Of a stretch of DNA of 64,000 nt, positions 30,954 to 62,444 are shown piece after piece. The stretch spans positions 18,727,851 to 18,791,850 of the forward strand of contig OZ024878.1 in assembly GCA_964017185.1 (NCBI GenBank), given 5' to 3'. This stretch comes from Rugalucina vietnamica. Taxonomy: Eukaryota > Mollusca > Bivalvia > Lucinida > Lucinidae. The notes beneath the pieces were generated by a model that had not been told where the DNA came from, ran no database searches, and was given only the letters and a program-made list of their open reading frames with translations. Position numbers and translations under genes: made by a program. The first letter of the stretch is position 1, and the number at the start of each line of letters is the position of its first letter.

Positions 30954-31211
30954 TCAACGTTCTGTTTCCAAACTCCTTCGGTACAGTATCTCTGATGCCT
31001 CTATCATGTTATTTTCCCGCCTTTTCAAGTCTTCTATATACTTTCTCTCCTCCTCACTGCTACACAGAACCACAAATTTACTGTTCTTCTTCCGAGCCCT
31101 ACCCCTCATCTGGACAAGGGCTGTGAGCGTGGAGGGCGGGTACAGACTGACGACTAGCTCACACTCCGGCCAGTCCACTCCCTCTTCCGCTACAGATGTT
31201 GCTACAATCAC
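30954..31211 (-). CDS. Fusion gene exon 6: motifs V and VI and C-terminus
   Basis: Acceptor tttccccatag|GTGATTG. Encodes VIVATSVAEEGVDWPEC (motif V) and TALVQMRGRARKKNSKF (motif VI), then a charged helix ending SLETER and TGA at 30954. No convincing donor was seen before the stop, so the protein appears to end without a RIG-I-type C-terminal domain. A longer alternative transcript cannot be excluded. Confidence 0.85.
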   Translation of the reverse strand: MIVATSVAEEGVDWPECELVVSLYPPSTLTALVQMRGRARKKNSKFVVLCSSEEERKYIEDLKRRENNMIEASEILYRRSLETER

Positions 31212-34200
31212 CTATGGGGAAAAAGGTACTTGTTTGTTTTATGGTTTAATGTCCTAGTCAACAATTTTCAGTCAAGTCCAAAGCAACCACTTCCTGGGTA
31301 GTATTAATCAGTACTATGAAGGGTTTGAACTAAAGAGCATCTCAATTCAGAGTCTGATGTTTTACCACTATACTACCACACTCAAACCCCCCAAAAAACG
31401 TGCAAAATTGGTTGGCTAGTTGATTTCATGTTTTTGTGCTCCACACAACAGCTAAAGAACTTGGTTAAAAGTCTCATCTGAAAGACGAGAGAAGCCAGGA
31501 ATAAAACCCTTGACCCCTAGTTACCACTACAACATAGAGGCTTCTGAGTTAAAGTTGTGGAGCTAGAATAATTTCCATTCAGGCTCAAAATAATTGAAAG
31601 ACTTGAAGCATTAAACTAAGGAGACAAGGAAAAAGTGCAAATGTGTATGCAGAATGATTATCTCACGGCCACCAATCCAACTCTTTCATAGCAAAATGCA
31701 ATGATAATAAATTCATTTGCGGTTCTTCCCACTATGCAGCTGCGGGGTTCGAAACATGTAAGTGACTTCGTGTTCTCTTGTTTTATTATCAATAACTCCT
31801 ATTTTAAGACATCTTTCAAAATTCGGAGAATGACATGATGTGGGTAACTTATCTAGCGTCTTTCATCTCCAGCCGATCTGCTATAAACACAGCACGTGGT
31901 TTGGAATCACTTTTGAGGCGAGTGCAACTCATGCGTTTTTAGGTTGTGTGCTATATTTTCAACACAAACAAGCCGCATTACTTCGTTTTCCAACTTATGC
32001 AATGCATCCGTTTTCTTCTGAAGATTTTGTTATAACTAAGGATAAAGGTTTGTTATTATAAATTTTATTAATATATCTGTTATTGGAAAATAATCGATAT
32101 GCTATGAAGTGGTGTGATAAGTGATGAAGAAAGGGGTCTAGCTATGAAGAAAACTGCCTATGCTTTGAGGAAGAGCACTCCAGTTGATTTTACTATAACG
32201 AAATACGCTGATCAGCACTGTATCATCAAGAGGCGTATTTAATAGCTTCCTCAGCTTCGACAGCAACTAAGCAAATCTGGTAAATGTCTTTCTTGTTTTG
32301 AAAAAGCATGATTCTTCCTTTACAAGAGCATGTTTTGTCTTACAGTATGTATTTATATATTGCAGGTATTTTTTTTCGATATGTATGCTTACTTATATTT
32401 ATTTACTGTATATATGTACTTCGCTTCTTATTGGAGCAACAAACCAAAGGACCAATGGTCCTGTAAACGCTCACCTGAGATCTGCTGTATATACGAATGC
32501 TATAGAAAAGAGTCCCAGTATAGGGGCAGATGAAGCCCTTGGGCCATTTTTTTTTTCAGAATAATCAATATACTGTCCATACAAGTTTTTCCCTTCAAAT
32601 GACATTTTAACATTTTACCCATTCAAATACATAGGCAACCCATGTTGACATTGCCTTAAAATAGGTCAAGGTCATCACAGGGTCATGACTTATACATACA
32701 TTGTAGTACTTGAGTCATCGATGCTTCATGCCAAGTTTCTTCGAAATTGGTCCACTGGTTCTGGAGAAGAAGATTTTTGAAGGGTTTATACCATATATGG
32801 GCATGGCGGCCATCTTGGTCATGTGACCTTGATTATTTATATATACATTGATTCCCCCATTCTATAGATGCTTCACATGAAATTTGGCTTTGATTGGCCA
32901 AGCGGTTTCAGAGGAGATGTTTGAATATTATGGTAATATACATGTATAATGCCCCTGGGCTGTGGCAAATGAGCCCCTGGGGTCCAATTTTTTTCAGAAT
33001 CATTAATATTCAGTCCTACTGCCCATTTCCTGCAAGACTTTCACTTTAAATGACATTTTAAAAGTTTTCCCCATTCAAATGCATTGGCGACCTATGTTGA
33101 CCTTGCTGTAAAATAGGTCAAGGTCATCCAAAGGTCATAATTTATAAACACACTGTAGAACTTCAGTCCCCAATGCTTCATGCCAAGTTTTGTTGAAATT
33201 GATCCAGTGGTTCAGGAGAAGAAGAATTTTAAAGGGTTTTTACCATATATGGGCATGGCGGCCATCTTGGTCACGTGACCTGGATTATTTATAAACACAT
33301 TGGTTCCCCCTTCCCACAGATGCTTCCTATAAAATTGGGCTTTGCTTGGCCAAGTGGTTTCAGAGAAGAAGATCTTTGAATATTTTTGTAATATATATGT
33401 ATATTGCCCCGGGGTGGGGGCAGACCAACCCCTGGGGTCCAAATTTTTTTCAGAATTACCTAACTTCAGTCCATTTGCCCATTTCCAGCAAGATTTGCCT
33501 TTCAAATGACATTTTAACAATTTTCCCCATTCAAATGCATTGGCGACCTATGTTGACCTTGCCGTAAAATAGGTCAAGGTCATCCAAAGGTCATAGTTTA
33601 TAAACACATTGTAGTACTCTAGACCCCTATGCTTCATGCCAAGTTTCGTTGAAATCGGTCCAGTGGTTCCGGAGAAGAAGAATTTTAAAGGGTTTTTACC
33701 ATATATGGGCATGGTCGCCATCTTGGTCATGTGACCTGGATTATTTATAAACACACTGATTCCCCCTTCCCATAGATGCTTCCTATAAAATTGGGCTTTG
33801 ATTGGCCTAGTGGTTTCAGAGAAGAAGATCTTTGAATATTTTTGTAATATATATGTATATTGCCCCGGGGTGGGGGCAGACCAACCCCTGGGGTCCAAAT
33901 TTTTTTCAGAATTACCTACCTTCAGTCCATTTGCCCATTTTCTGCAAGATTTGCCTTTCAAATGACATTTTTACAATTTTCCCCATTCAAATGCATGGGC
34001 GTCCTATGTTGACCTTGCCGTAAAATAGGTCAAGGTCATCCAAAGGTCATAATTTATAAACACATTGTAGTACTCTAGACCCCGATGCTTCATGCCAAGT
34101 TTCGTTGAAATCGGTCCAGTGGTTCCGGAGAAGAAGAATTTTGAAGGTTTTTTACCATATATGGGCATGGCGGCCATCTTGGTCATGTGACCTGGATTAT

Positions 34201-37200
34201 TTATAAACACATTGGTTTCCCCTTCCCATAGATGCTTCATATAAAATTGGGCTTTGATTGGCCAAGCGGTTTCAGAGAAGAAGATCTTTGAAAATGGTGG
34301 ACGACGGACGGACGGACGGACGCCGGATCATGGCCATCCTATAAGCTCACCTTGTGAGCCTAACGGCTCAGGTGAGCTAAAAAGAGCTATTTGCATTACA
34401 GAAAATGATCAGTTTACTTCCTCTTGTACATGGAACTATCAGGGTTCATACAGTAACCAGCATTGCTACATTATAACCAGAGGACCAATGGTCCTGTAAA
34501 CGCTCACCTGAGATCTGCTGCATATACCAATAAACATGTTTGAATATTATGGTATTTAACTCCAGTGCAGGGGCAGATGAAGCCCTTGGGCCATTTTCTT
34601 TTTTCAGAATCTTCAATATTCTGTCCATTTGCCAATTTCCTGCTGGCTTTTCCCTTCAAATGACATTTTAACAATTTTCCCAATTCAAATGCATAGGCAA
34701 CCCATGTTGACCTTGCCATAAACTTGGTCAAGGTCATCACAGGGTCATGATTTATATATACATTGGAGTACTTTAGCCATCGATGCTTCACGCCAAGTTT
34801 CCTTGAAATCAGTCTATTGGTTTCAGAGAAGAAGATTTTTGATGGGTTTTTACCATATATGGGCATGGCGGCCATCTTTGTCATGTGACCTAGATTATTT
34901 ATATACACATTGATTCCTCAATTCTATAGAGGCTTCACATAAAATTTGGCTTTGATTGGCCAAGCGATTTCAGAGGAGAAGAGGTTTGAATATATATTAT
35001 GGAAATATACATGTATATTGCCCCGGGGTGGGGGCACATGAGCCCCTGGGGTCCAATTTTTTTCAGAATCATTAATTTTCAGTCCTACTTCCCATTTCCT
35101 GCTAGACTTTCACTTTAAATTACATTTTAAAAGTTTTCCCCATTCAAATGCATTGGCGACCTATGTTGACCTTGCCGTAAAATAGGTCAAGGTCATGAAA
35201 AGGTCATGAATTATATATACATTGTAGTGCTTGAGCCATCGATGCTTCATGCCAAGTTTTGTTGAAATCGGTCCACCGGTTCTGGAGAAGAAGATTTTTG
35301 AAGGGTTTTTACCATATATGGGCATGGCGGCCATCTTGGTCATGTGACCTGGATTATTTATATACATATTTGTTACCCCTTCCTATTGATGCTTCACATA
35401 AAATTTCGCTTTGATTGGCCAAGCGGTTTCAGAGGAGAAGATGTTTGAATATTATAGAGATATACATGTATATTGCCCCGGGGTGGGGGCGGATGAGCCC
35501 CTGGTGCCCAATTTTTTTCAGAATCATTAATATTCAGTCCTACTGCTCATTTTCTGCAAGATTTTTCCTTTAAATGACAATTCAACAATTTTTCCCATTC
35601 AAATGCATTCGCGACCTATGTTGACCTTGCCGTAAAATAGGTCAAGGTCATCATAGGGTCATGATTTATATACACATTGTAGTGCTTGAGCCATTAATGC
35701 TTCATGCCAAGTTTCGTTGAAATCGGTCCAGTGGTTCTGGAGAAGAAGATTTTTGAAGGGTTTTTACCATATATGGGCATGGCGGCCATCTTGGTCATGT
35801 GACCTGGATTATTTATATACACATTGGTTCCCCCTTCCCATAGATGCTTCATGTAAAATTTGGCTTTGATTGGCCAAGTGGTTTCAGAGGAGAAGATCTT
35901 TGAAAATGGTGGACGACGGACGGACGGACGGACGACGGACGACGGACGGACGACGGACGGACGGACGACGGAGCATGGGTATACTATAAGCTCACCTTGT
36001 GAGCCTGACGGCTCAGGTGAGCTAAAAAGAGTTAAAAAAGAGCGCGTCGGTCTCAGATTTAAAATCCATGATCCGATGTAAGCGCAAGAGTGATTGATAA
36101 TAAGCTAGAAAAAGTGCAGCGGTCTAATTATGTGCAATGATAACTTACTTTTTCCATACTTTGTCAAAACAAGAAAGACATTTATCAGCTTTGCTTAGTT
36201 GCCGAATAAGCTAAGTAAGTAAGTAACTTCTTTATTTAATAGCTGAGGAGGCTCTTAAATACGTCTCTTGACAATACAAGGCTGAACAGTGCATTTCATT
36301 ATAGTATAATGAACTGGACTGCTCTAGCTCATAGTATAACAAGTTTTCTTCATAGCTAGTCTCCTTTCTTCATCGCTTATCACGCCACTTCATAGCATAT
36401 TGATTTTTTTCCAATCACAGGCATACAGATGACGTTTATTGTCACAAATCTTCATCATTAGTCAAAATATAATCTTCCAAATAAAATGGACGCATTGCAT
36501 AAGTTGGAAAACGAAGTCATGCAGTGTGTTTGTGGTGAAAATCTAGCATACAACCTAAAAACTCATGTGTTGCACTCACTTCAAAAGTGATTCCAAACCA
36601 CGTGCTACGTTTTCAGCTCATCGGCTGGAGGTGATAAAAGCTAGATGAATTACCCACATCATGTCATTCTCCTATTTTTGAAAGATGTCTTAAAATAGGA
36701 GTAATTGATAATAAAACAAGAGAACATGAAGTCGCTTACACGTTTCGAACTCCGCAGCTGCATAGTGGGAAGTACTGCAAATGAATTTATTATCATTGCA
36801 TTTTACTATGAAAGAGCTGAATTGGTGGCTGTGTATCTGGAAATTTCCTGATTGGATTTTGCATAAAGGTTGTCATGATTTGATTTTGAAATGTATTGAA
36901 TATCATGGATGCCATCATGAAAAGTAGAAATAGCAAAACCAAGAATTGATACAATTAAAAATTCCAACCCATACAGTACACCTGAGAAAGATATTAAAAT
37001 AGTGGTCACATTTTGATCTAATTTTGTCATGTATCATAGGCGTACCACCCTATACTCACAGTACGCACATGCGTAATGTAAATTAAATAAAAGAAGCTTA
37101 TAACATGGCTTTTTTGTCATTTCAAGATAACAACAGGACCAATGGTCCTGTAAACGCTCACCTGAGAACTGGGATATGCAACCGTAGCTGACCTTGCCGT

Positions 37201-40200
37201 AACATAGGTCAAGGCCATCCAAGAGTCATGATTTATACAAACATTGTAGAGCTGTATTCATTGATGCTTCAGGCCAAGTTTCAAAGGCCTTCTGGTTCTG
37301 AAGAAGAAGATTTATAATGGTTTTTGCTATTTATAGCCATGGCAGACATTTATAGTCATGTGACCTTGACCATTTATATAACCTTCATTCTCCCTTCCTA
37401 AGAATACTCAACAAGATGTTTGGCTTTGATTTTTAGCCAAACGGTTTCAGAGAAAAAGATCTTTGAATATTATGGTAATATACATGTATATTGCCCCGGG
37501 GTGGGAGCAGACTTGCCCCTGGGGTCCTTTATTTCAGAATCATAAATATTCAGTCCATTTGCCCATTTCCATAAAGTTTTTCCCGTCAAATGACATTTTG
37601 AAAATTTTCCCCATTCAAATGCATGGGCGACCTATGTTGACCTTGCCGTAAAATAGGTCAAGGTCATCCCAGGGTCATGATTTATATAAACTTTGTAGAG
37701 CTCCTCCCCCTGATGCTTCATGCCAGGTTTCAAAATCATAGGCCTTCTGGTTCTGGAGAAGAAGATTTTTAAAGGTTTTTGCTATTTATAGCCATGGTGG
37801 CCATCTTGGTCATGTGACCTTAACTATTTATATTATCTTTCATTCTCCTATCCTAAGGATACTAAATATAAAATTTGGCTTTGATTGGTTGAGCGGTTAC
37901 TGAGAAAATTAAGTTTAACATTTAATTTGTAAATGACCTTTGGCCAAGGTCAAGAAATGACCTTGACCTTTAATACTTACACCACTTCACTTCATAAGCT
38001 CAATATGTTGTCTGTATCTACCAACTTTCAGGTCACAGGCTACAAAACTTCCTGAAAAATTCAATGTTTTCACTTTTTTCCATTGAAAAGCCTATGTAAC
38101 CAAAATTGAGCTTGTCGTAAAATAGGTCAAGGTCAACCCAAGGTCATGATTTATATAAACTATGATGGGCCAGAGTCCCTGATGCTACATACCAAGTTTC
38201 GTTGAAATTGGTCCACCGGTTCCAGAGAAGAAGATTATTTTATGGTTTTTACCATATATGGGCATGGCGGCCATCTTGGTCATGTGACCTGGATCATTTA
38301 TATAAACATTCGTTCCCCCTTCCTAAGGATGCTCCACATGAAGTTTGGCTTTGATTGGCCCAGTGGTTTCAGAGGAGAAGATCTTTGAAATTGTGGCCGG
38401 ACGCCGGACGCACACCAGAGCATGGCCATCCTATAAGCTCACCTTGTGAGCCTTTGGCTCAGGTGAGCTAAAAATTTTGCTATTTTTGCACTTTGAGCAA
38501 ATAACTTAAAATTTTATGGTTACATCCTTGTGTATGGCCTAGCAGGCTTGAGGAGAAAATCTTCCAGGCAAGGGTAAAACCTAGTACCTGATATTTATAT
38601 TGTTTGATCTCCTCCAGAATTCTCTTCTGTTGGTTAACTTTCATCCCAGCAGCCTCGGAGCCTGTCTTACCATGGCCAACAACAGACGTAACTCGTAGGT
38701 TCATACGCTGCATCACTTCATTGTTCTGTAATATATATGTATATGTCTACATGCACATTGTATGAGGGTCTCAATGGGGTTTACTGATTGGCGATCTTTG
38801 GCCATTCTGTTTACTGATTAGCAATTTTTTAACCCAAATTTTAATGATTAGCAATTTTGGGCCAATTGTTTTTTACAAATTAACAATTTTTGGGCCAAAC
38901 TTTTACTGATTAGCAATTTTTGGGCCAAAACTTTACTGATAAGCAATTTCAGAGGTACCCCACTGAGACCCTCTTGTATGCATCATAATAATTCATTCTG
39001 TATCACTGTAAGTTTGGTAATATTGGTGAGAACTGCTACTATTTTGTGAACTGATTGCTTTGTGTCTTAAAGATTCTCCAAAATAAAGACTTACTAAAGG
39101 CTATAAAGGCACAAATATTTAATTGCAACTTCTAGAACTCATGAATAATTTGTTAATAAGCAATTTACAAAATAAAGACCCCGCAAAAATTTTCCATTTC
39201 CAGCAACATATCATCATAGAATCTATTTTCATATTGTTTTACGAGCACATTTACATTAAAGTGGGTGCTTGAAAATTGAGCCGCCACATGGGAAAACCAA
39301 CAATCTGCATAGGCGAAAACAAAGGCGCAGATCAGCTTCGCAGTGACTGCAAAGCTGATCAGCGCCTTTGTTTTCGCTACTCGGATAGTACAATTCCTCT
39401 TCTATTTAAATCCAAAATTTCAAGCTTCTAGCTATTTTCTGTGCTTGTACAGGGCGGTTTGTGTCGGACCTGTTCGGAAACCACATTGTTGGTTTTCCCA
39501 GAAGAGGGCTCAATTACTGTACCTGCAAGACATAAGTTATCTTGTGGACTGTGGCTCTCTCTTTCACCAGGACCAGAGCCATAGGTTTCACCGTTGCTCT
39601 CTGCGACCAGTCTATGTCTAGAGAATTTGTCAACTCGTCCACTAGCCGAGATATGTGTGAATCAAACTGCAGTTCTTTGGGATTGTCCAACAGCCCTTTA
39701 GTATGATTGTATATAGCCTGTAGCTTTTCACAAGGCAAGTCAAAAGTTTTAGCAAAGTCAAAGTTATATTCTTCATTTTGCAGTCCTGTCATTTCTTCAA
39801 GAGCACATGGCACCCCACCTTCAAGCAAACTGTTCAAGGTCATTAAGATGCTTTCCGCATGCTTTCCTAATAGCCTGACATGATATTTGTTTTCAGCTTC
39901 CAGACACTGAATATTAGCCACAGCCAACTGATACTCTTCCAGAAAGTAGTCCTCCCTTTTGTTACACTCGGCAACCATTCTGATTTTACCATGACTTGAA
40001 GACTGGTTCACATCTTTTATAGTTAAGAAAAACTGAATGTCAGAGATTGGAACCAGTCTGAGATAGCAGTATACCAAATAAACATGAAGCTCCAAAACAA
40101 ACAAATCCACAATCTCATTGAACTGGTCGGGCTGAGGGCGGATTATTATCTCGGCGTTGGACTGAAACTTAGCCAATGTGGATTTATGTTTCTGCACGAT

Positions 40201-43200
40201 GTTCATTGACACTCCTCCCATATTTCCAACCAGCTTTTCCAACATTCTCAGTGTAGCAGGCACACTTTCTTTACCAGCTGGCGATGCTGTCAGGCCTAGA
40301 ATCTTTGGTCGGAATTTCCCCTCATAGATTTTAAGATGGTGGGAGTATAGCAGCATATTGAAGGGATGTTTCTTATCACAGTGATGAGCTTCATCAAAGA
40401 CAACGAGGCTGAAATCCTCCCATCTGATGATCTTCCTGTCTAGTAAGTTCTGACAGAAAGCTGAAATGAAATTATAACCAGAGGACCATTGGTCCTGAGA
40501 ACGCTCACCTGAAGCTTGATCTTAGAGTATAAAGTCATCATGAAATGACCTTGACCTTGAATACTCACACACCTTTATTGACTTCATAAGTTGTCTGCAT
40601 CTGCAGAGTTTCAAGTCTCAGGCTGCAATAGTTTCCAAACCCAGTGATTTCTGAGAAAACCATAATTTCAATTTTGATATTTAATTGACCTTGGGTCAAG
40701 GTCAAGAAAATACCTTGGCCTTCATTAATTACTTACCTTCATTGTCGCTATTAGTTGTCTGCATCTAGCAACTTTCAGGTCTCAGGCTGCAACAGTTTCC
40801 AAAATATCCATTGTTTTCGCCTTTTCCCACGTAAAAGCCTATGTTTCCAAAATTGACATTGCCGTAAAATAGGTTAAGGTCATCCTAGGGTCATTATTTC
40901 AACAAACTATGATGGGCTAGAGTCCCAAATGCTACATACTAAGTTTCGCGTAAATCGGCCAGCTGGTTCTGGAGAAGAAGATTTTTGAGTGGTTTTTACC
41001 ATAGTTGGGCATGGCGGCCATCTTGGTCATGTGACCCAAATTTCGCGATCAAACTTTCATTCCCCTTACCCTAGGACGCTCCACATAAAATTTCACTTTG
41101 ATTAACCAAGCAGTTTCAGAGAAGAAGATCTTTAAAAAGTGTGTATGGACGACAGACTAGCCAAGGTCAAGAGATGACCTTGACCTAAATTAATCATATA
41201 CCTTCATCTACTCCATTAGTTGTTTACATCTACGACTTTTCAGGTCTCAGGCTGCAACAGTTCTCAAAAAATCCATAGTTTTCACTTTTCCCATGTAAAA
41301 GCCTATGTTTTCAAAATTGAAATTGCCATAAAATAAGTCAAGGTCATCCTAGGGTCATCATTTGATCAAACTATGATAGGCTGGAGTCCCAAATGCTACA
41401 TACGAAGATTCATGAAAATCGGCCTGCCAGTTCATGAGAAGAAGATTTTTGAGTGGTTTTTACCATATATGGGCGTGGCGGCCATCTTGATCATGTGACC
41501 TGGATTTGGCTATCAAACTTTCCTCTCCCCTACCCATGGATGCTCGACATAAAATTTCACTTTGATTGGCCAAGCAGTTTTAGAGAAGATGATATTTGAC
41601 TAGAGGACCATTGGTCCTGTAGCTCACCTGAGAGATTATCACATTGTAAGCTCATGAGATTTAAATTAATTGAGACTATGCATGGACACTATTGACCCCC
41701 GGGGCATGGCCAAATTTGACCCAGGGGCATGACTGGCACAATTTATAATGGGGACTACCAAACATTGCTACATACAAAATATAGAAGCTCTGGGCCTTTT
41801 GGTTTCAGAGAAGAAGATTTTTGTTAGTTTTTCCCATTGTAAGTCTATGGAGACTATCTACCCCCGGGGCGTGGACAAATTTGACCCCAGGGGCATGGCT
41901 GGTACAATTTATGTAGAGGACCATTAGCCATTGCCACATACAAATATCAAAGCTGTGTGCCCTGTGGTTTCAGAGAAGAAGATTTTTGAATTTTTTTCCC
42001 ATAGCAAGTCTATTGAGACTATCAACCTCCGGGGCCTGGCCAAATTTGAACCCAAGGCCATGAATGGCACAATTTATGTAGAGGACCATTAGCCATTGCT
42101 ACATACCAAATGTCAAAGCTGTGGGCCTAGTGGTTTCAGAGAAGAAGATTTTTTAATTTTTTTCCCATAGTAAGTCTATGGAGACTATCAACCCCCGGGG
42201 CATGGCCAAATTTGACCCCAGGGGCATGAATGGCACAATTTATGTAGAGGACCATTAGCCATTGCTACATACCAAATATCAAAGCTGTGGGCCTAGTGGT
42301 TTCAGAGAAGAAGATTTTTTTAGTTTTTCCTATTGTAGGTCTATGGAGACTATCGACCCCCGGGGCGTGGCCAAATTTGACCCCGGGGACATGATTGGCA
42401 CAATTTATGTAGAGGACCATTAGCCATTGCCACATACAAAATATCAAAGCTGTGGGCCCTGTGGTTTCAGAGAAGAAGATTTTTTAATTTTTTTCCCATA
42501 GTAAGTCTATGGAGACTATCAACCCCCGGGGCGTGGCCAAATTTGACCCCAGGGGCATGAATGGCACAATTTATGTAGAGGACCATTAGTCATTGCTACA
42601 TACCAAATATCAAAGCTGTTGGCCTAGTGGTTTCAGAGAAGAAGATTTTTTTAGTTTTTTTCCTATTGTAGGTCTATGGTGACTATCGACCCCCGGGGCA
42701 TGGCCAAATTTGACCCCAGGGGCATGATTGGCACAATTTATGTAGAGGACCATTAGCCATTGCCACCTACAAAATATCAAAGCTGTGGGCCCTGTGGTTT
42801 CAGAGAAGAAGATTTTTCATTTTTTTTCCCATAGTAAGTCTATGGAGACTATCGACCCCCCGGGGCGTGGCCAAATTTGACCCCAGGGACATGAATGGCA
42901 CAATTTATGTAGAGGACCATTAGCCATTGCTACATACCAAATATCAAAGCTGTGGGCCTAGTGGTTTCAGAGAAGAAGATTGTTTTAGTTTTTCCAATAG
43001 TAAGTCTATGGAGACTATCGACCCCCGGGGCGTAGCCAAAGTTGACCCCAGGGGCATGGCTGGCACAATTTATGTAGAGGACCATTAGCCATTGCCACAG
43101 AACAAATATCAAAGCTGTGGGCCCTGTGGTTTCAGAGAAGAAGATTTTTTAATTTTTTTCCCATAGTAAGTCTATGGAGACTATCGACCCCCCGGGGCGT

Positions 43201-46200
43201 GGCCAAATTTGACCCCAGGGGCATGAATGGCACAATTTATGTAGAGGACCATTAGCCATTGCTACATACCAAATATCAAAGCTGTGGGCCTAGTGGTTTC
43301 AGAGAAGAAGATTTTTTTAGTTTTTCCCATTGTAAGTCTATGGGACCTATCTGTTGCCATGGAAACCACAATTTTGATACAATCTGCTCCAAAACCTAAT
43401 GCCATCAATCCCCCAACCCAATTATGGTTCACATTAAATTTGATCAAGATCGGCCTACTAGCTTCAGAAATATTCTTCTTTGAAATTGTGGACGGACGAC
43501 GGACGACGACAACGGACGACGGATGCCTGCCTATCCTATAGGCTCACCTGTGAGCCTTCGGCTCAGGTGAGCTAAAAATATTGGGACAAATCCTGAAAAA
43601 AAAGTATTGGGACATATCTGAAAAAAAATATTGGAACACAAATAACGGGACATGTCCTGACACAAATATTAAGACACATCTTTTTAACTACACAGTACAA
43701 TCCTTCTACATATAAAAACTGAAATTTCAAGCTTCTAACCTTCTTCTTTTGACTGTACCGGCCAGTTCTGAGAACTGTTTTTCTCACATCGCTGCTCATA
43801 TAAAAGACTACATACCTGCTGTGACCACTACAATATCATGTTTCCACAGTGGTACACCATGGGTGCTCTGTTGGTCCATACAAAGTGTGGCTATGTTCAG
43901 TCGTCGCCTACCCAGGTCTGACAGAGTTCCACCATCTGGTTTGAACCTAGATTGAGTAAAACCAATAACTGAACCACCTCATGAGAAAACCCAACATTTT
44001 GTATATGCAAAAACAAAGGTGCAGAACAGCTTCCCAGTAACTGCAAAACTGCTCAGCGCCTTTGTTTTCGCTACTCAGACAGTACAATTATTCCTCTTCT
44101 TTCTAAATCCAAACTATCCAGTCCCTAGCCATCTTGTGTGCTTGTACAGCTTGGTTTGTGTTGTACCTGTTAGAAAACCACATTGTTGGTTTTCTCATGA
44201 CGTGGCTCAATTATTCATAAGAACAAAATTACGGGACAACCAACAAACCTGAGAACAACGAACGCAAATGAAATCAATATAAGACTGAAAGATGCAAATA
44301 CATGTATGGGAATGACTTACCACAGACCAGGGCCCAGTTGTTCAAAACTAACGACGTCGTTAGTTAACGTTTCGTTAAAATTTCAAACATTAATATTACA
44401 AATACACTGTTATTTTTTGTTGAAAAAATGTGAGAATCCTTTGCAGTGCAGACCAGGGCCCAGTTGTTCAAAACTAACGACGTCGTTAGTTAACGTTTCG
44501 TTAAAATTTCAAACATTAATATTACAAATACACTGTTATTTTTTGTTGTAAAAATGTGAGAATCCTTTGCATTGCAAAGGATTCTCACATTTTTTCAACA
44601 AAAAATAAAAGTGTATTTGTTACTTTTGCTGATCTTTGCTTAACAAATTTATGTCTTAACGATATCGTTAAGCTAACGATGCTTTGAACAACTGGGTCCA
44701 GAATGATTACTTGGAAAGTTATTTTCTCCATATTGTTGCTTATTGATTTCATCTTCTCTGGTTTTTCTCATTTGCTTTGGTTGTTCAGTTGTGTTGGTTG
44801 TCTCTGGATTACCTGTGTGAAAATTCAGGTTTCATGATGGTTCTGCAGGTTGCCGTTTATCCTGTTTGCCAGTCTATCATGCTTGTCATTTTGTTTTTGA
44901 TTGCTACTAGCTTGATGACTACCTTGCTGGGAAAGAGCTAGGATCTCACTTTTCATGTGTTAAAGGAAAATAACAAATAGGCATTTCTATACAATTGTTC
45001 ATGTAATTAGGTAATAACATTTTTAACATTTTTGTAATGTCTTGTAGTCTGTAGATGTATTACATGCGCGGATCCAGAGGGGGGGACCGGGGGTCCGGAC
45101 CCCCCCTGGAATATGAAAATTTTACCTTAAAAAAAGGTAATTTCGGGATTTTGGGGGGGTTGGACCCCCCCTCGTCTGTGACCAAAAATTACCATTTTCG
45201 TTGGACCCCCTCTCATGAAAATTTCTGGATCCGCGCATGTATTATCCTTTCTTTCCTGCCTGGTGATTGGGTTTGGATTTTAAATTGTATCAATTTCTGG
45301 ACTTCTTACATTTCGGTTTAGATTACCAACATACAGGTATCTTCTAATACAAACCTGGTAAATTCAAAGCCTCCAAGCTCTGCGGTGATATACTTAGACT
45401 GCTGCAGAACCAGTAAGACCTTGTCGACAATAAACAACACACATCTGGTGGGGTACATCTCCAACATAGTACTCATCAGCATCACTGATACCAGAGTCTT
45501 ACCAGTTCCTGTAAAAACAAGTATTAGATGACATCTTTCTTGAAATTTTAAAATCGATGTTGTTTTTCCAGTAGCTTATATTATAATCCCTTAATCAATA
45601 ACAAAGCTTTTACCTTGTACATCTTAATATCAATGATTGAGCTAATATAACAAGAAATTCATCTTAATCATATTGATATTTAAAAGATCCCTTATTTGTT
45701 GTTTGACCTTGTTTATTTACGTGTTTTTCAAGAACAGGTTCATGTAAATGAGTGTGCCATTTCCTATCCATTGCTTACTTTTTACTTTTATATTTTTATT
45801 TTCTCAGTTAAAAAAGAGCAGTTTTTAGGTATACCAAATACCACTAGTGCTAAATTGTGTCCTTGAGGAAGACATTTACTCCATAACTTTCTATTTTGTA
45901 AAGTACTCATGAAACATCCCAACATGACTGAATTGTTGACTGGGGTATTTTAAAAGCCACTAAAAAAACAAACTTTATACCTGTAGGTAGGAAGCACACT
46001 GTGTCTGACTTTATGGCATTATCATACAACTCCATCTGGTAGTCTCTAGGCACTGACTGGGTCTGGGGTTTGAACTCTGGTCCCAAGTTTCGACCACCAC
46101 GATGTTGTCTCACAGGCGCTGGCTCAATCCCGACTTTAGCCATATGACGTTTTCCAAGCAGATGTGTTTCGTAGCTTTCTCTTGTGTTGGCAGGAGCGTT

Positions 46201-49200
46201 ACATGTGTGGCAGTAGTAGGAGTGAGTGGCAGCGAACGGGTTCACCCTGGGTGACTGTTGACTAGTACTGACATCAGCTTTCTGACTTCCAGAACCTCCT
46301 GCGTTCTCAGTGGCAGAGCTATTCTGATTTCCCATACTCCTATTTTTAGTAGCAAATGCTAGATCTGACCCAAAAGTTTTCCTTGCACCACCACCAGAAC
46401 CTTGCTCTATATCATTTTCATTTGCCTGTGGCATAGTGGCAAATCTAGGTTTCAATTCAATCGGATGAGCTGTGGTGATTTCTGGCGTGATGAAGCGACT
46501 TTCAGCACTAACTGGAACTTTATCAACACCTGCTGTGTTTTGGTCAGGAAATGGTCCTAATCTTGATTGCACTTGTTGATCTATGGCAGTTTCTGGTTTT
46601 AGAGGGACTCTAGATTGTCCAACATTGGCAAGATCAGCAGGCTCATTATTGCCACTATCTCCAGGATCTTTGTGTTCTGGAAACAGCTCCAATGACAAAA
46701 ACTCCTCCAATGGATTTGAAAATGATCCCTGTCTGTTTCCTAAACAGTTATCACCTACAATGGGTCCCACACCTTGAACTGCTGTTTGCAAATTATTGAA
46801 TGGGCCTCTTCCTACAACTGAAACTGTTTGAAACATTTCAGGGTGTTTCATTCTCTGATGAACAAGTAGCTGTTCTTGGGAGTTAGCTACACAAGTACAG
46901 ATTTCACATTGGCTAGTATTCTGCTCTGATCCACCAGCTAATAGCTTCTTTCTATGTTTTTCTCCTGCAAGGTGTTGTTTGTAGTTGTCCTCTCCTGAAC
47001 ATTCTACTTTACATATATCACAGACATAAACATCTGGTTTATCAGTTCCACCTCTAGTTAGCTTCTTTCTGTGTTTCTCACCTTTCAGGTGCCTTTGGTA
47101 ATTTTCCTCACCAGAAGTTTCAACTTTACATACATCACAATAGAAGAAACCAGGCCTACTTTCAATCACACCACTACCTTGGTTCAAAGCTGGTAAGTTA
47201 TTTGCCGGCATACCGCTAGATGTCACATTCACATTGACTTGCCCAATCTCAGGTCCAACATTACTCATGGGTTGACCAGAAACTGGTAGCTTCAGTGCCT
47301 TGGCATTCTTGTGTTTCCTTCCACTTAGATGTTGCTCCATATGCTGGACTGATGTTAGCGCTAAATTACAAATGTTGCAATGGCCTCTGTTTAAATCTCT
47401 ATCAAATATATATTCAGATTCTCTTTTATCAGGAGTTAGCAGCTGTATACCAGGCATTGTGCATCTGTTTTCTTGGCCATGGTTGTCCGTCCCTTGAAAA
47501 GTATAGTTCTGCCTGTCTATAGATGGATGAGTGATATTATCCCCTGTACCTCCAGTGAAGGGTTTTGCATCTATACTGTATTCTTGGACATTTGGTCTTG
47601 GTGCTGTTGTTTCTGATGGAAAAGGCTTTGCATCAATACTGTATTCAGAATATTTTATGGAATTATTATTTTCATTTTCTCTGGAAGGACTTTCAGTAGC
47701 ATTGTTATTATCTTCCATCTTAAGATTACTTATCATTGTAGATAAATCTATATTGTCTGAAGTTTCACATTGATTCTGATTTTGTTCAAGATGTACATCT
47801 TCCGACCTTCTGTTATTGAACTGTTCTTCAGTTTGTCTTATCAAATTACTCTGTTTAGTTATAATCTGTACAGGCTGATCATTGTTAAATTTAAGAAGTC
47901 CTCTCCCAAGACCAACTGGCCTATCAGCATTATTTAGCAATACAGGCAATGACGTGGGCCCTGTTTCATGACCAGAGGATCTAAGATTGTTTCTGATAAA
48001 TCTGGCTGGCCCTGGCTCTGAACTCGAAGATACTGATCTATTTATTTCTCTTTGTCCATCTCTATAGAAAGTGTCTGGAATTTCGTCTGATCTATTTTGA
48101 GCAAATTCTTGTCGATCCTGAAGACCTCTTTGACTATTATCTTCCCTTGGAAATGGTTTTGCTAGTATTTCTCCACTGACAGGCTCTTGAGCAGTTCGGT
48201 ATGAGATTGATCCCTCACCACTTACTAAACTGTCAACAGATAGATTGGCAGAATCAATGTTAAAAAACTTCTGCAACTTATTTTCTGTCTCCTGATTTTC
48301 TCTAATATTTCCATATACTGGTTCTGGCTTAACAAAGTGTGGTAAATGTCCTTGTTGCTGTTCATCTGAGATCATTAGTTCTGACATTTGCTGAGATATA
48401 GCAGAATAACTAACATAATCAGGTGGATTATTTCCTAATATATTCTCCATTTCATGGACTGATGAAAAACTTGAACTTCTTGATGATTTAATACTTTTGT
48501 TCAGCAAATTTGTCTCATGTTTTAAACTTTTTAGATGATCAACCATTTCATCAAGACTTTCTACACGGATATCACATACTTCACAGTATAATTTATCACT
48601 ACTTTGACCATTTCCATGGACTGGTTTCATAAATGGACTGCTACTCTGGCTAACTCTTGATACAGGACTGTTACTCTGGACCAGTCTGCTGACTGGACTA
48701 TAACTCTGGACTGGTCTAGCAATTGGACTGCTACTTTGTATAGGTTTCACAAATGGACTAGTAGCCTCAATAGGATTGACACCTTGCCTGAAACTCTGGA
48801 CATGTCCTAAATCTGGACAACCACCTGGGTATGGGCCCACAATTTGAGAACTCATCATTTGTTTTTGTTGGGTTTCTTCACTTATTTGGACATTTCTAAA
48901 CATTCCAGTGTCTGTTTGTGGGTTTATGGGCTGTGGTGGTGGTGGCCTAATGTTAAATGTCTGAACAACTTGTTTCTTTTTATGTTTTGAACCATTAAGA
49001 TGTTGAGTGGCGTGCTGTTTAGAGGTCAGTTGAATGTCACAAAGATAACAATATCCTCTGCTACCATCAAAATCATATTCTCTCTCTTGATTTACTTGTG
49101 ATTGCCTCCCTTGGACAGTTGGTGAGCAGGCTTCTGCTAAACCTTGATTTACAGCACTAGAAGCTTGACCAATATGTGTTCCAGTTTGTGCTGCAAATTG

Positions 49201-49466
49201 TTGCTTCTTCTGTACATTTGCTAAATGCCTTGGGGATGCCTTATGCTGTTCAAGGATCATAAAAGTATCACAGGATATGTTGCAAACATCACACACATTC
49301 TGACTCAATGTGCCAGCTGAAGCGGTCTGCCTTGCCGTAGCTTCTTTCTTCTTGTGTGCGGCACTGTCGAAATGTTGTTTAGCCGGAATGGCTCCACTGA
49401 AGCTTTTGTTGCAGTAGTTGCACTGTAATGGAATCTCAGAACCAAACTCCATCATCACACAAGCTT
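30954..49466 (-). CDS. Zinc-finger / RIG-I-Dicer-clade helicase fusion gene (six exons)
   Basis: Exons 49466-45981, 45508-45355, 43946-43816, 40460-39523, 38725-38588 and 31211-30954 join in phase. From ATG 49455 they give 5094 nt, or 1697 aa plus stop. Residues 1 to about 1115 hold nine C-x2-C-x12-H-x5-H fingers (finger 8 has shorter spacing) separated by disordered linkers. This finger type in JAZ/ZNF346 and dsRBP-ZFa binds double-stranded RNA. Residues about 1137-1697 form an SF2 helicase: LPTGTGKT (1156-1163), VDKVLLVLQQ (Ia), DEAH (1276-1279), LGLTASPAG (III), ATSVAEEGVD (V, 1616-1625) and QMRGRARKK (VI, from 1646). The sequence around motifs Ia, III and V-VI is RIG-I/MDA5/Dicer-like, not FANCM- or DEAD-like. 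No CARD, PAZ, RNase III or C-terminal RNA-binding domain is seen. An RNA-sensing or RNAi role is inferred. An upstream 5' exon exists but was not fixed. Confidence 0.87.
31229..31390 (-). mobile_element. SINE (family S1) in helicase intron 5
   Basis: GGTTTAATGTCCTAGTCAAC, AATTTTCAGTCAAGTCC and CTTCCTGGGTAGTATTAATC match S1. The tRNA-like end (GATGTTTTACCACTATACTA) is degraded. Confidence 0.65.
32443..34379 (+). mobile_element. Family A element A5
   Basis: AAAGGACCAATGGTCCTG, GCTCACCTGAGATCTGCTG, then about four ~470 bp units (AAAATAGGTCAAGGTCATC, ATGGGCATGGCGGCCATCTT, GCCCCGGGGTGGGGGCAGAC), ACGGACGGACGGACG and the final GGCTCAGGTGAGCT hairpin. Confidence 0.75.
34478..36024 (+). mobile_element. 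Family A element A6
   Basis: CCAGAGGACCAATGGTCCTG through three ~470 bp units to a long GGACGGACGACGG microsatellite (35910-35975) and GGCTCAGGTGAGCT. Same subtype as A5 and only 100 bp from it. Confidence 0.75.
36834..37132. other. Helicase intron 5 sequence between foldback and A7
   Basis: About 300 bp with no recognised feature. The small minus-strand ORFs here lack splice or family support. Confidence 0.4.
37133..38469 (+). mobile_element. Family A element A7
   Basis: AGGACCAATGGTCCTGTAAA, GCTCACCTGAG, then three diverged ~470 bp units and a short GGACGCCGGACGC tract. Ends GGCTCAGGTGAGCT, about 120 bp before helicase exon 5. Confidence 0.75.
38588..38725 (-). CDS. Fusion gene exon 5: helicase domain 2, part 1
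   Basis: Exactly 46 codons between atatattacag|AACAATG and AATATCAG|gtacta. It reads VTSVVGHGKTGSEAAGMKV then QQKRILEEIKQYKY, matching the RIG-I segment GRGKTNQNTGM...QKCILDAFK before motif V. Phase 0 on both sides. Confidence 0.88.
38765..38972. mobile_element. Small TIR element made of ~31 bp tandem units
   Basis: Inverted ends AGGGTCTCAATGGGGT / ACCCCACTGAGACCCT. The interior is six diverged copies of a unit like TTTACTGATTAGCAATTTTT plus GGGCCAAA. Lies 40 bp upstream of helicase exon 5, in intron 4. Confidence 0.8.
39277..39513 (+). mobile_element. Hairpin-core MITE (M1) at a splice donor
   Basis: TGAGCCGCCACATGGGAAAA to TTTTCCCAGAAGAGGGCTCA with an intact GGCGCAGATCAGCTTCGCAG hairpin. 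Its end is ten bases from the 3' boundary of helicase exon 4 (39523). Confidence 0.85.
39523..40460 (-). CDS. Fusion gene exon 4: motifs II and III and the helicase insert
   Basis: Acceptor ttcatttcag|CTTTCTG, donor GTCTTGCAG|gtacag. Encodes LVVFDEAHHC (motif II), LGLTASPAG (motif III) and a long mostly helical stretch consistent with the insert (Hel2i) region of RIG-I/Dicer helicases. Motif II is DEAH, whereas animal RIG-I, MDA5 and Dicer have DECH. MITE and family A copies abut both ends of the exon. Confidence 0.9.
40478..41598 (+). mobile_element. Family A element A8, 3'-truncated
   Basis: CCAGAGGACCATTGGTCCTG then the same two-unit series as A4 (GCTCACCTGAAGC, AGGTCAAGGTCATC, GGGCATGGCGGCCATCTTGG). 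Cut by A9 at 41598 with no continuation found beyond A9. Begins 17 bp from the acceptor of exon 4. Confidence 0.7.
41599..43573 (+). mobile_element. Family A element A9, near-identical to A1
   Basis: Same start, same order of ~166 bp units and same end as 2752-4697 (GGGGACTACCAAACATTGCT, CCAATTATGGTTCACATTAA), with scattered substitutions and without the ~65 bp deletion of A1. Lies in helicase intron 3. Confidence 0.8.
43690..43799 (+). mobile_element. Fragment of M1 MITE
   Basis: TGAAATTTCAAGCTTCTAAC, GACTGTACCGGCCAGTTC and TTTTTCTCACATCGCTGCTC are the right part of M1. Ends 16 bp from helicase exon 3. Confidence 0.6.
43816..43946 (-). CDS. Fusion gene exon 3: helicase domain 1
   Basis: Acceptor ctcaatctag|GTTCAAACC, donor ACAGCAG|gtatg. 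Encodes 43 residues ending LWKHDIVVVTA, matching the strand before motif II where RIG-I-like proteins have DIIISTAQ-type sequence. Phases restore Arg and Ala codons at the junctions. Confidence 0.85.
43971..44210 (+). mobile_element. Hairpin-core MITE (M1)
   Basis: GAACCACCTCATGAGAAAAC to TTTTCTCATGACGTGGCTCA. It starts 24 bp upstream of helicase exon 3 (43946), in intron 2. Confidence 0.8.
44329..44700. mobile_element. MITE family M3 with 126 bp internal duplication
   Basis: Ends GGGCCCAGTTGTTCAAAAC and TTTGAACAACTGGGTCC. The left arm is present twice in tandem (44325-44450 and 44451-44576), with about two differences in 126 bp. Confidence 0.8.
45060..45243. mobile_element. Short TIR element, GCGCGGATCCAGA ends
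   Basis: ACATGCGCGGATCCAGA and TCTGGATCCGCGCATGT are perfect inverted ends of a 184 bp element with G/C-run interior. Lies in helicase intron 2. Confidence 0.85.
45355..45508 (-). CDS. Fusion gene exon 2: Walker A remainder and motif Ia
   Basis: Acceptor tgtttttacag|GAACTGG, donor TTTACCAG|gtttgt. Joining to the previous exon completes LPTGTGKT. It continues as TLVSVMLMS and VLFIVDKVLLVLQQ, the motif Ia region, which resembles the VLLVxQ of MDA5-type helicases. Length 154 nt, phases 2 and 2. Confidence 0.88.
45509..45980 (-). other. Helicase intron 1, no element recognised
   Basis: The intron between the zinc-finger exon and the Walker A exon, AT-rich. It starts GTATAAAG and ends TTTTTACAG on the gene strand. 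The shortest intron of the gene, and the only one without an obvious mobile element. Confidence 0.7.
45981..49466 (-). CDS. Zinc-finger exon of the fusion gene (nine U1/JAZ-type fingers)
   Basis: One 3.5 kb exon between acceptor tatgctttcag|AAGCTTGTG and donor CTACCTACAG|gtataaag. Fingers, N to C, lie near nt 49422-49354, 49293-49225, 49050-48982, 48592-48525, 47380-47310, 47135-47067, 47015-46945, 46900-46835 and 46205-46135. Fingers 6 and 7 are near-duplicates (SGEENYQRHLKGEKH, SGEDNYKQHLAGEKH). Linkers are Gln/Ser/Asn-rich and contain an SSPxxKPVQ-type repeat near 48620-48770 and a duplicated EYSIDAKPF near 47560-47650. The exon ends in PRDYQMELYDNAI...FLPTG, so the helicase entry motif is encoded with the fingers. 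First ATGs are at 49455 and 49452; the open frame continues upstream of the acceptor without meaning. Confidence 0.9.
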
Positions 49467-56901: not shown

Positions 56902-59900
56902 TCAACCAGCAGACATATTGTCATCTTCAGCACTACCTGAATCTTTCTGCCCAGATTCATATTCATGGAACACAATACCCTCAGGCAGAGCCCTAAAAGC
57001 TAGGTTATTATTATTTTCAATAGCATTGTTTTCAATTCCTTTAACATCAGCCACAGCAGGTTTAATATCCTCAACCATATTCTTTCCCAAGAGATCATTG
57101 CTAGCAGCATTAGTTCCACATTCAAGGTCACCGTTTAGGACTTGCTCATCAACTATGTCACTTTCGATTTTATCGGTTGTTTCCTTCTTCCTCACATGAA
57201 GATTGCTACCTAGGTCACATTCAGTGTTAGCATCAATGACTCTAGACTCATCATTTGTAGCAGTTTTTGATTCTTGCAATTTATCATTTTCCATGACCGC
57301 TGTATTATTGTTACTTTCAAGATTGGTAGTTTTGCTAATGCACTCAACTTCAATATCATTTAGCTTATTGTCAAATGCTACCCCCTTTAGGAAAGTATCA
57401 TCATCAGTCATAGCAGACAGGATTTTATCAAGCATATCATCATTCAGGACAGCATTACTCACAAAGTCGCTAGTACTTTCAAGACCAGTATCCAATGCCT
57501 CACCCTTATTATCCACGGCATATTGTATTTTATCAACAATTTCTTTCATTATGAGATCCTTGATCACTGAGTTGCTGTTTCTTTCACGACCAGGATTTAA
57601 GACTTCGCTTACTTGTTCAATAGCAGTTTGGATGTTATCCATTATTTCTTTCTTTACATTGGCATTAAATGCTGAGTTTTTATGACTTTCGACCTCAGCG
57701 TCAACATTACAAATTTCATCTTCAAGGACTGTTTGCACTTCATTCATACATGCATTTACAGCGCTATTTGTATTATTTCTAGCAGTATGCATATCAAACA
57801 TGTCAACAGTGCTCTGTAAGTTGTCATCATTTTCATTCTTTATTAAAGTGCTGTTATCTGATTTACTTCCACTTTTAACATTAGTAGCAGTGTCATCACC
57901 CTCAACATTTAAATCATTTTGTATTTCATCAACTATCTCCTTTTTCACCTGAACATTGTCAGCACAGTCATTATCATCAATAAAGTCTGTATTAACAATG
58001 TCATTTTCCTTATCAGTCTGTATTTCATCAAATGGTTCAGTCTTCACCTGAATGTTTCCAGCACAGTCACATTCATGTCCAAGACCAGTATTGCTTACTC
58101 CACTCTCATCTTCAATAGCAGACTGTTTAGTATCAACTACTTCCATTTTTATAGCTAAATTCTTCATCAGTATTTCTGAATGTTCTACGCCTTGATGGAC
58201 CTTAATCTCTTTTTCCATATCTAAATTTGTGATGCCATTTTCATGTTTACATGCATTTTGTTGCGAGTGTGTCTTTGTATTACTTTCATGTTTACAAGCA
58301 ATTTGTTGTGTATCTAATTTTGTATTGTCACTTTCACGGTCACTAGCATTTTGTTTTGTGTCCGACTTTGTATTACTTTCATGTTCAGAAGCATTTTGTT
58401 GTGGGTCTGTTTTTGCATTGTCTGACTGACTTTCACATGTTAGTTCATATGCTTTCTGCTTGTGATCCTCCCCAGCAATATGTTCTCTAAAGTTATCCTC
58501 TCCTTCATAATCCAGCTGGCACACAACACAATAGAACACATCAGGCCTACCATCTTCAAATTTTGCCACTGTTTTCTTGTGGTTTTTACCAAACAGATGG
58601 CGATTATAATTGTTTTCTTCTGCACAATCAATATTGCAAAAATGACAATAGAAAATGCTGACACTATCATTTTCTGAAAACATCATCCTCTTTCTGTGTT
58701 TTTCTCCAAGTAAATGCTGCATAAGATTCTTCTCACCTGAGCATTCAACATTACAAGCATCACAATAGAATATACCTGCTATTTCGCATTCAAATTCTTC
58801 AACTCTTTGTCTATGTGTCTCTTCATTTTCATGCTGAGTGTAAGTTTCATCATTCTCACATTGAAATTCACATAGGACACAATAGAAAACATTGCCCTGT
58901 GCCAGTTGCTGCAACTCAGCAGATTTCTTTCTATGTTTTGTTCCTGAAATATGTTGCTGGTATGAAGCCTCATTGTGACATTCAATGTTACAAAGCTGAC
59001 AACGGATCATACCAGATGTATTATCTTCTTTTTCTTTTAGATTCACAGAATGTTCAGTATCTAGCAAATGCTGCATTAACTTGTTTTCACCATCATACTC
59101 CGTTTTACAAATATCACAACAGTAAACGTCAAATTTGTCTGTTTGGAACTTCATCAAATTATCTTTGTGTTTTTCACTTTCAAGATGAATTGTATAAGTA
59201 TCTTCACTGGGACATTCAACACAGCAAAGGGGACAATACAAAATGCTCTGTTCGGCCTTGATAACATTTTTTCTATGTTTAATGCCCTTCAAATGTTGTA
59301 CAAGGTTATTTTCACTATAACATTCAATCACACAATATTCACAAAAGAAGATACCAGGTTTGTCCGGTTGAAATTTAGTGACTTTCTTCTTATGTTTCTG
59401 ACCCAAAACATGCTCGGCATAATTTTCCTCACTGCAACATTCCACTTCACAGATTACACAATACGTTAGATTCATCTTTGCGTTTTCATCTTCAGCAATT
59501 ATTTTTGCAAGTTTCTTTCTATGTTTCTGTCCAGAGCAATGCTCTAAATAGCTGTTTTCGCTTTTGCAGTCCACTTCACAAATTTCACACACATATGCAT
59601 CTGGTCTGGTTTCCACACCCTCTGATAACTGTTCAGCATTTCCACCACTCAGAGAATAGTTTTGTAGATCTGACGTCAGGATTACAAATTTCTTGGGATG
59701 AAGTTCCTTTTGGTGACTAACAAGTCCTTCAATGGTATTGACACAGTGGTTGCATATTTCACACTGTGGCAACATACCAGCCACAAAGTTTTTCATTCTT
59801 AATGTATGTGTGTTATCAGTCAGATGATATCTGCATTCTTCTTCCTCTACACAGATGATATTGCATAATACACATATGAAACATTTTACTGAATTATCAA

Positions 59901-61369: not shown

Positions 61370-62444
61370 CTGGAAGTTATACTATTACATTACAAATAGT
61401 TAAAATATTTTAAGATTTTTGAAGCTGTATGGTAAATTTAAATTTTTATTTCACATGTATACTTGAAGCCAGTAAAAACGCAACTTTCAGCATATAACCT
61501 ATCCAACGATTCTTGGATATTTTCACAATGTTATTATATAAAATCATGAAATTGTCATCCCGATATGAAGGCCATATTCGTCTTGTGCTAAATTAGCAAG
61601 TGAAGTAAAGTGATCTGCGTTTGTCGAGTAAGGGACACAACTCAAACATGGAAAAAACAAAAGCAAATGCACCTTATCAATCCAGCTATACGTTAACCTT
61701 TATGACTAGCTCTTTTGTGTTCAAACTTTCGGTCATTGCCAATATTGCTCTAAAGTCTATGTAAACCATTCCGTAGATTGTTTTTTTCAAGTTTTGATCT
61801 TATAAAAGGCCATCAAAGTCAGTACATGAAAACCGGAAGTGAATTCAAGAATGCCATTTTTGAAAATTAAAACTGTCATAAAATGGACCCATATGCTAGA
61901 ACGTAACATCTCCTGTGTCCAAACTATGGAATAATTCTGTTTTATTGAAGTTTCGGTAGATTCTCAAAATCTGTTATTTTTTTCGAAAATTTGAACATTT
62001 GGAAATTAATCTTGGTCGTTCCATCAGGTGGAATTGTCGGTATAACACCGTTTTTTTTTTGTTGCTGGTATTCGGCCGCATACTTCCGCATTGAAATTGG
62101 GTGGCAATGCAAGGTTGAATGGGTTTAAAATCAATTTTTAATGATTTTGTCATTTTTCACTCAAAAATCAATCAGAAGTGCTAAATTGAGTTCAGTTTTC
62201 GCTGAACGATTCTCGGGCGAGGGGCAAGCTGACTTCGCTATAAACAAAGCGCACAAGGTGTCCCTGAAAGGTAGAAATAACCTGTATATCAGTTGCGTTT
62301 TTAATGGTTTTAAGTATACTTATTTAAAAAAACTGTTTTCGTTTAATATAAATTGTTAGAATATGATTAAATGACCTCTACAAAGTCAGGCCACCTATGA
62401 AACAAACACGCTTTTAAGCCTTAGACAGATACTGAGATACAGAC
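61370..62444 (-). other. Predicted intron between acidic exon and 17-finger exon
   Basis: 1075 bp bounded on the gene strand by GTCTGT and AACTTCCAG. AT-rich, with no mobile element recognised. Confidence 0.5.

Follow-up and report, generated by a model that had tools for sequence, protein, structure and literature searches.

The 64,000-nucleotide stretch of DNA analyzed here (hereafter, the window; positions 18,727,851 to 18,791,850 of contig OZ024878.1, assembly GCA_964017185.1) comes from the lucinid bivalve Rugalucina vietnamica and encompasses, on its minus strand (49452-30954), a predicted gene, hereafter the fusion gene, in which an array of nine C2H2 zinc fingers precedes a complete superfamily 2 (SF2) helicase core. 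Rebuilt from the window sequence, the six exons (Table 1) join in frame to encode 1696 amino acids (5091 nt, that is, 1696 codons and a stop codon). All five introns are of the GT-AG type, the phases sum, and no stop codon appears across the junctions; one of the introns spans 7.4 kb, and the hexamer AATAAA is located at 30814, beyond the stop codon at 30954. A preliminary description of this locus had proposed a single gene with summing exon phases, which stands, except that its length of 1697 amino acids counts the stop codon. The extent given there, 30954 to 49466, agrees with the exon coordinates but not at the start: 49466 is the base directly 3' of an acceptor-like AG, and the first in-frame ATG after it is at 49452.

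A single exon of 3.5 kb holds both finger 9 and the beginning of motif I, as originally described, so that the fusion is independent of any predicted junction; the LPTGTGKT motif begun in this finger exon is completed by exon 2, at a distance of 472 bases. Both finger exons, at 1495 and 1207 codons, surpass every other stop-free frame of the window in length and are not attributable to chance, given that the longest stop-free frame in 30 mononucleotide shuffles of the window did not exceed 207 codons. We consider the predicted fusion of the finger array and the helicase in one gene to be confirmed by the genome sequence. Exon 4 includes hydrophobic residues in frame (VDLFVLELHVYLVYCYLRLVPISDIQFFLTIKD) that could represent a short intron left unspliced in the model.

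Eight of the nine fingers show exactly the C-x2-C-x12-H-x5-H spacing that had been ascribed to all of them, the exception being finger 8 (residues 849-870), which reads C-x2-C-x12-H-x4-H. Four fingers are located before residue 320, four at residues 692-870, and one at 1081-1103, just ahead of the helicase, with long linkers between them; such spacing and long linkers are also those of ZNF346/JAZ and dsRBP-ZFa proteins. In Pfam, the array is recognized by zf-met (115.5 bits against a cut-off of 21.2, E 7e-34) and zf-C2H2_jaz (86.3 bits against 22.6, E 1e-24). The assignment of the fingers as JAZ/ZNF346-like is supported by profile and spacing. The earlier designation of the fingers as U1/JAZ is borne out in its second half, by zf-C2H2_jaz, the spacing and the weak structure model discussed below, whereas "U1-type" is a loose term, the families above cut-off being zf-met and zf-C2H2_jaz. 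Single-finger matches to PF12171 number at least 11 in the genome, 3 in the window and 8 elsewhere (150 of 4065 candidates scored).

The motifs of the helicase core that had been named before (LPTGTGKT, VLLVLQQ, DEAH, TAS, ATSVAEEGVD and QMRGRAR) are all intact in the rebuilt protein. Three Pfam helicase families exceed their cut-offs, namely, ResIII (53.5 bits against 22.5, E 4e-14), Helicase_C (47.7 against 23.5, E 2e-12) and DEAD (38.9 against 26, E 1e-9). Among the best 60 of 78 PDB matches of the core, the top ranks are held by the AncD1D2 Dicer (E 1.2e-38), LGP2 (1.6e-27), RIG-I (1.5e-26) and DCL1 (1.9e-26), all with 30-37% identity, followed by further RIG-I entries, MDA5, DCL4 (6e-23) and Dicer (2.4e-21); FANCM matches at 3.9e-15. 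AncD1D2 ranks first also for each helicase half searched singly. The 13 other rows of our first tree are 24.5-37% identical to the fusion helicase in the aligned core. Motif VI is QMRGRAR, and the eight RLR (RIG-I-like receptor)/Dicer rows that cover this motif read QxxGRAR or QxRGRGR, as opposed to QRxGRTGR in the three FANCM/Hef rows (the rows of DCL1 and of two RLR-type helicases from the same genome, RLR A and RLR C, do not cover it). Judging by these signatures, motif VI is of the RIG-I/Dicer type and not of the FANCM/Hef type. Motif II is DEAH, which is common to FANCM/Hef, and the RLR and Dicer rows that cover motif II have DECH.

In a tree of 15 helicase rows and 314 columns, built without the Hel2i insert, Dicer-2 and DRH, the three FANCM/Hef rows split from the other 12 at 100/99, and the fusion helicase groups with the four Dicer rows; at 85/94, the support for this placement beside Dicer is modest and not decisive. 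In this tree, the exon ends of the RLR, Dicer and FANCM rows from the same genome are approximate, and the MDA5 and DCL1 rows are less than half filled. The RLR rows do not form a single clade in the best tree. Grouping the fusion helicase with RLRs A and B of the same genome (p 0.045), with RLR C (p 0.030) or with LGP2/MDA5 (p 0.033) is weakly rejected, without correction for the number of tests. In the first tree, of 14 rows and likewise built without Hel2i, Dicer-2 and DRH, the grouping with Dicer had a support of 87/96, and the p values were 0.024 for a grouping with the RLRs of the same genome and 0.038 for LGP2/MDA5. We therefore limit the claim to membership in the RIG-I/Dicer/FANCM superfamily, with a motif VI of the RIG-I/Dicer type. 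The RIG-I/Dicer-clade type assigned in the preliminary description agrees with the Pfam helicase families, the PDB ranking and motif VI; the exact position within the superfamily is the less firm part.

A Pfam scan of the fusion protein at E<=0.1 detected no CARD, RIG-I C-terminal domain, RNase III, PAZ, Dicer-dimer or double-stranded RNA (dsRNA)-binding domain (dsRBD); eight further families at this threshold, all below their own cut-offs, are finger or helicase models. This agrees with the earlier proposal that the fingers stand in place of CARD, RNase III or C-terminal modules, none of which was found in the protein or at the locus. Given that CARD, the RIG-I C-terminal domain, RNase III, PAZ and Dicer-dimer were not found, the fusion protein is by definition neither an RLR nor a Dicer, and an ordinary RLR or Dicer is ruled out by domain content.

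Searches of the same genome covered 1.09 Gb in 47 contigs (labelled C2, C4, C10, C13 and so on). At E<=0.001, the helicase core has seven matches, six of which are the fusion gene's own exons, the seventh (1.6e-4, 44% over about 50 residues) falling in an RLR-type gene on C2 near 37.177 Mb; this search thus yielded no other close copy of the helicase part. RIG-I C-terminal domains (PF11648) occur genome-wide in three places, C13 at 4.785 Mb and C2 at 37.171 and 34.452 Mb, with none on C10, and each adjoins an RLR-type helicase core; the Pfam family RIG-I_C is found in only two places, both on C2. RNase III is found in three places, two at a Dicer gene on C4 and one on C2; Dicer-dimer (PF03368) is found genome-wide only on C4, and PAZ was sought in the fusion protein only. 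The FANCM MHF-binding region (PF16783) occurs once, on C4 at 19.62 Mb, and not at the fusion gene. Because RLR-type, Dicer and FANCM genes sit elsewhere in the genome, the fusion gene is an addition to the ordinary set. An orthologue of FANCM is ruled out by the different motif VI and by the separate FANCM gene on C4.

In the only Dicer found in this genome, on C4 near 47.343-47.347 Mb, the Walker A motif is degenerate, GSSTGRT compared to GTGSGKT in AncD1D2, with the lysine replaced; motif II (DECH) and motif VI are retained. According to passages of PMC10159624, the ATPase motifs of some mollusc Dicers are degenerate; the same passages ask whether antiviral defense by the Dicer helicase reaches molluscs.

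Upstream of the fusion gene lies a finger-only tandem paralogue (Table 1), the ATG of which, as in the fusion gene, is shortly preceded by an acceptor-like AG. With the finger part as the query, ten matches in the genome were obtained at E<=0.001, one being the fusion gene and nine falling in the paralogue frame. Paralogue fingers 1-3, finger 4 with the linker motif that follows it, and the fingers from finger 5 onwards align to the fusion gene at 29-32% identity, with their order kept. The linker motif, SANxxxxSLxxxxxSxxYRTAxE, is kept in both paralogues outside the fingers, at residues 401-423 of the fusion protein and 319-341 of the paralogue. No second helicase copy was found near the paralogue, the helicase matches in the window being the fusion gene exons and one chance match (E 2.6); the helicase was either lost from the duplicate or gained by one of the copies. 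The acidic C-terminal region of the paralogue includes repeated V/I-K-x-E-like segments, which we take to resemble SUMO sites.

Table 1 Features of the window (positions count from the first nucleotide of the window)
Feature	Position	Strand	Description
Fusion gene, exon 1	45981..49452	-	First in-frame ATG; nine zf-met/JAZ-type C2H2 fingers, long low-complexity linkers, helicase entry PRDYQMELYDNAIKSDTVCFLPTG; GT donor, phase 1
Fusion gene, exon 2	45355..45508	-	GTGKT, which completes motif I; VDKVLLVLQQ, in the region of motif Ia
Fusion gene, exon 3	43816..43946	-	Linker up to motif Ic region (KHDIVVVTA)
Fusion gene, exon 4	39523..40460	-	Motif II DEAH, motif III TAS, inter-RecA insert (Hel2i position, by eye), start of helicase domain 2
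Fusion gene, exon 5	38588..38725	-	Stretch between motifs IV and V (NLRVTSVVGHGKTGSEAAGMKVNQQKRILEEIKQYKYQ)
Fusion gene, exon 6	30954..31211	-	Motifs V (ATSVAEEGVD) and VI (QMRGRAR), then a short tail up to the stop codon; not followed by a RIG-I C-terminal domain
Tandem paralogue	56902..61389	-	1495-codon frame, ATG at 61359, 17 JAZ/zf-met fingers, no helicase; about 7.5 kb upstream of the fusion gene
Retrotransposon-like frames	15329..20416	-	Non-LTR (long terminal repeat) type; 828 codons (endonuclease/reverse-transcriptase-like) and 718 codons (by eye)
Phosphatase-like stretches	1450..2437	-	Two stretches resembling dual-specificity phosphatase exons, with a CKQGASRS loop (by eye)

With JAZ-type fingers and a predicted ATP-hydrolyzing core of the RIG-I/Dicer type, the fusion protein is most likely an ATP-driven, dsRNA-binding sensor or cofactor, a reading to which we give a probability of roughly 0.55. 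From the families to which the fingers belong, we infer that they may bind dsRNA. In a structure prediction from the single sequence, limited to fingers 5-8, fingers 6 and 7 consist of two strands followed by two helices that are separated by a break; as far as this weak model goes, the arrangement resembles that of ZNF346 fingers on dsRNA, for which passages of PMC10957929 describe a helix-kink-helix that contacts the major groove and binding to the backbone with no sequence preference. The fingers of the fusion protein would likewise grip dsRNA by its backbone, whatever the sequence, and serve as the anchor, a role that falls to the C-terminal domain in RLRs and to PAZ and dsRBD in Dicer, while the helicase would close on the duplex and spend ATP to move or proofread. 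Because neither CARD nor RNase III is present, the protein would be expected to act in trans, be it as an antiviral Dicer cofactor comparable to DRH-1 in worms, an LGP2-like modulator or a dsRNA remodeller. The degenerate Walker A motif of the resident Dicer gives some weight to the cofactor role because the fusion helicase could supply the dsRNA-driven ATPase that this Dicer is missing. A more ambitious version, which we regard as rather improbable, would place the protein next to RLRs and Dicers as a third type of dsRNA helicase in animals, a motor equipped with fingers that makes up in trans for the dsRNA-stimulated ATPase step lost by an ATPase-degenerate molluscan Dicer, so that sensing (fingers and motor) and cutting (Dicer) would be split over two proteins.

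Several results weigh against a dsRNA sensor or cofactor. The finger model is weak, the best of five having a mean pLDDT (predicted local distance difference test) of 55.6 and the others 44.5 to 22.7, with ten-residue blocks at pLDDT 70-80 in the better fingers. The sole PDB sequence match of fingers 5-8 at E<=0.1 is dsRBP-ZFa, at E 0.047. A fold search with the finger model retrieved mostly DNA-binding C2H2 proteins among the 50 of 315 matches listed, so that the fold does not separate RNA binding from DNA binding; moreover, zf-met/JAZ-type fingers are also found in proteins with other partners. For the helicase, Hef (1wp9, 8.7e-20) outranks Dicer-2 (3.3e-19) and the DRH helicases (1.3e-18) among the PDB matches, and a search with the Hel2 half alone puts Hef (1.3e-10) and FANCM (4.4e-9) ahead of DCL1 (8.8e-9) and Dicer-2 (2.1e-8); because of these orders, the ranking alone does not set the core apart from the FANCM/Hef side. 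The insert between the RecA domains, about 150-200 residues by eye, falls in exon 4, the single-sequence model of which reaches a mean pLDDT of only 34.7. In the 15-row tree, the end branch of the fusion helicase, the only one flagged as long, measures 1.97 changes per site. The tests do not reject a grouping of the fusion helicase with all RLRs (p 0.18) or one with FANCM/Hef (p 0.22), the corresponding values in the first tree being 0.13 and 0.17. No orthologue was found in viral contigs (2 pattern matches, 0 confirmed) or in bacterial and archaeal genomes (12 pattern matches, 0 confirmed), the places outside this genome that were scanned for relatives; each of these scans relied on six patterns of eight residues, all taken from one protein, so that only close relatives were detectable.

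A function in the RIG-I/MAVS pathway deserves consideration: as a CARD-less, RLR-type helicase in which the fingers replace the C-terminal domain, the protein might, in the manner of LGP2, compete for dsRNA or hand it over. We see this as possible, if on the doubtful side. Motif VI of the RLR/Dicer type would fit, as would an aligned core that is 33% identical to that of LGP2 and the three places in the same genome that encode RIG-I C-terminal domains; passages of PMC5557890 indicate that, in oyster larvae infected by virus, the expression of CARD-less RLR genes was like that of CARD-bearing RLR genes. Such a function is disfavored by the tree, which prefers the Dicer neighbor and weakly rejects, in uncorrected tests, LGP2/MDA5 and the RLRs of the same genome as partners, and by the missing C-terminal domain of the fusion protein itself.

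A nuclear factor with no role in defense, dedicated to RNA-DNA hybrids, DNA repair or transcript processing in a FANCM/Hef-like job, appears unlikely to us. Motif VI is of the RLR/Dicer type, FANCM ranks far under the AncD1D2 Dicer and the RLRs, and an ordinary FANCM gene is present on C4; what speaks for it is the FANCM/Hef grouping that the tree does not reject, the DEAH shared with FANCM/Hef in place of DECH, the score of Hef, which is level with that of Dicer-2, and the nuclear activity reported for ZNF346 in passages of PMC10957929. It is far less probable still that the six exons do not form one transcript and instead represent a finger-only gene, like the tandem neighbor, next to a separate or decaying helicase gene. 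The gene model is known from the genome sequence alone, it includes the 7.4-kb intron, and the upstream paralogue is finger-only, all of which such a split could accommodate; yet the finger exon itself runs on in frame into the beginning of the helicase and the LPTG of motif I, with GTGKT completed by the next exon, the five GT-AG junctions have matching phases and no stop, and all motifs are intact.

How viral dsRNA is sensed in molluscs, and whether antiviral activity driven by the helicase persists in their Dicers, is a question raised in passages of PMC10159624, for which the fusion gene offers a concrete test case. If the fusion protein is indeed a dsRNA sensor or cofactor, the dsRNA-anchoring part of RIG-I/Dicer-like helicases would be exchangeable. 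Among the matches listed in the openly licensed literature (titles, abstract starts and passages), there is no description of a JAZ-type finger array fused to a RIG-I/Dicer-type helicase; the architecture may be undescribed, and this is weak evidence of novelty. In the passages at hand, the RLRs of oysters comprise forms with CARD, helicase and C-terminal domain along with CARD-less ones (PMC5557890), up to 12 RLRs are attributed to the Pacific oyster (PMC6723221), and Aplysia has two proteins with a helicase and a RIG-I C-terminal domain but no CARD (PMC9334734).

Compared to known systems, the fusion protein shares with RIG-I, MDA5 and LGP2 the SF2 core, similar motif V and VI signatures and 28-33% identity over the aligned core, but has nine fingers and neither CARD nor the RIG-I C-terminal domain, and is distinct from the three RLR-type genes of the genome. 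ZNF346/JAZ and dsRBP-ZFa (PDB 1zu1) resemble it in the Pfam families zf-C2H2_jaz and zf-met and in the helix-break-helix of the weak model; in the fusion protein, however, a helicase follows the fingers, and the sequence match to 1zu1 has an E of only 0.047. To our knowledge, the known members of these families consist of fingers only. The DRH helicases (PDB 8t5s and 9t99, presumably from C. elegans) are likewise RIG-I-type helicases but are weaker matches (2.3e-18 and 1.3e-18), and we know of no finger array in them. DRH-1 partners Dicer in the antiviral defense of worms, according to passages of PMC10159624. The Dicer helicase (AncD1D2, PDB 9mw6; plant DCL1, PDB 7eld) includes the best-scoring match, has a motif VI of the QxxGRAR type and is the neighbor in the tree; the fusion protein differs from it in the N-terminal fingers, in DEAH instead of DECH, in the missing RNase III, PAZ, Dicer-dimer and dsRBD and, with respect to the Dicer of the same genome, in an intact Walker A motif where that of Dicer is degenerate.

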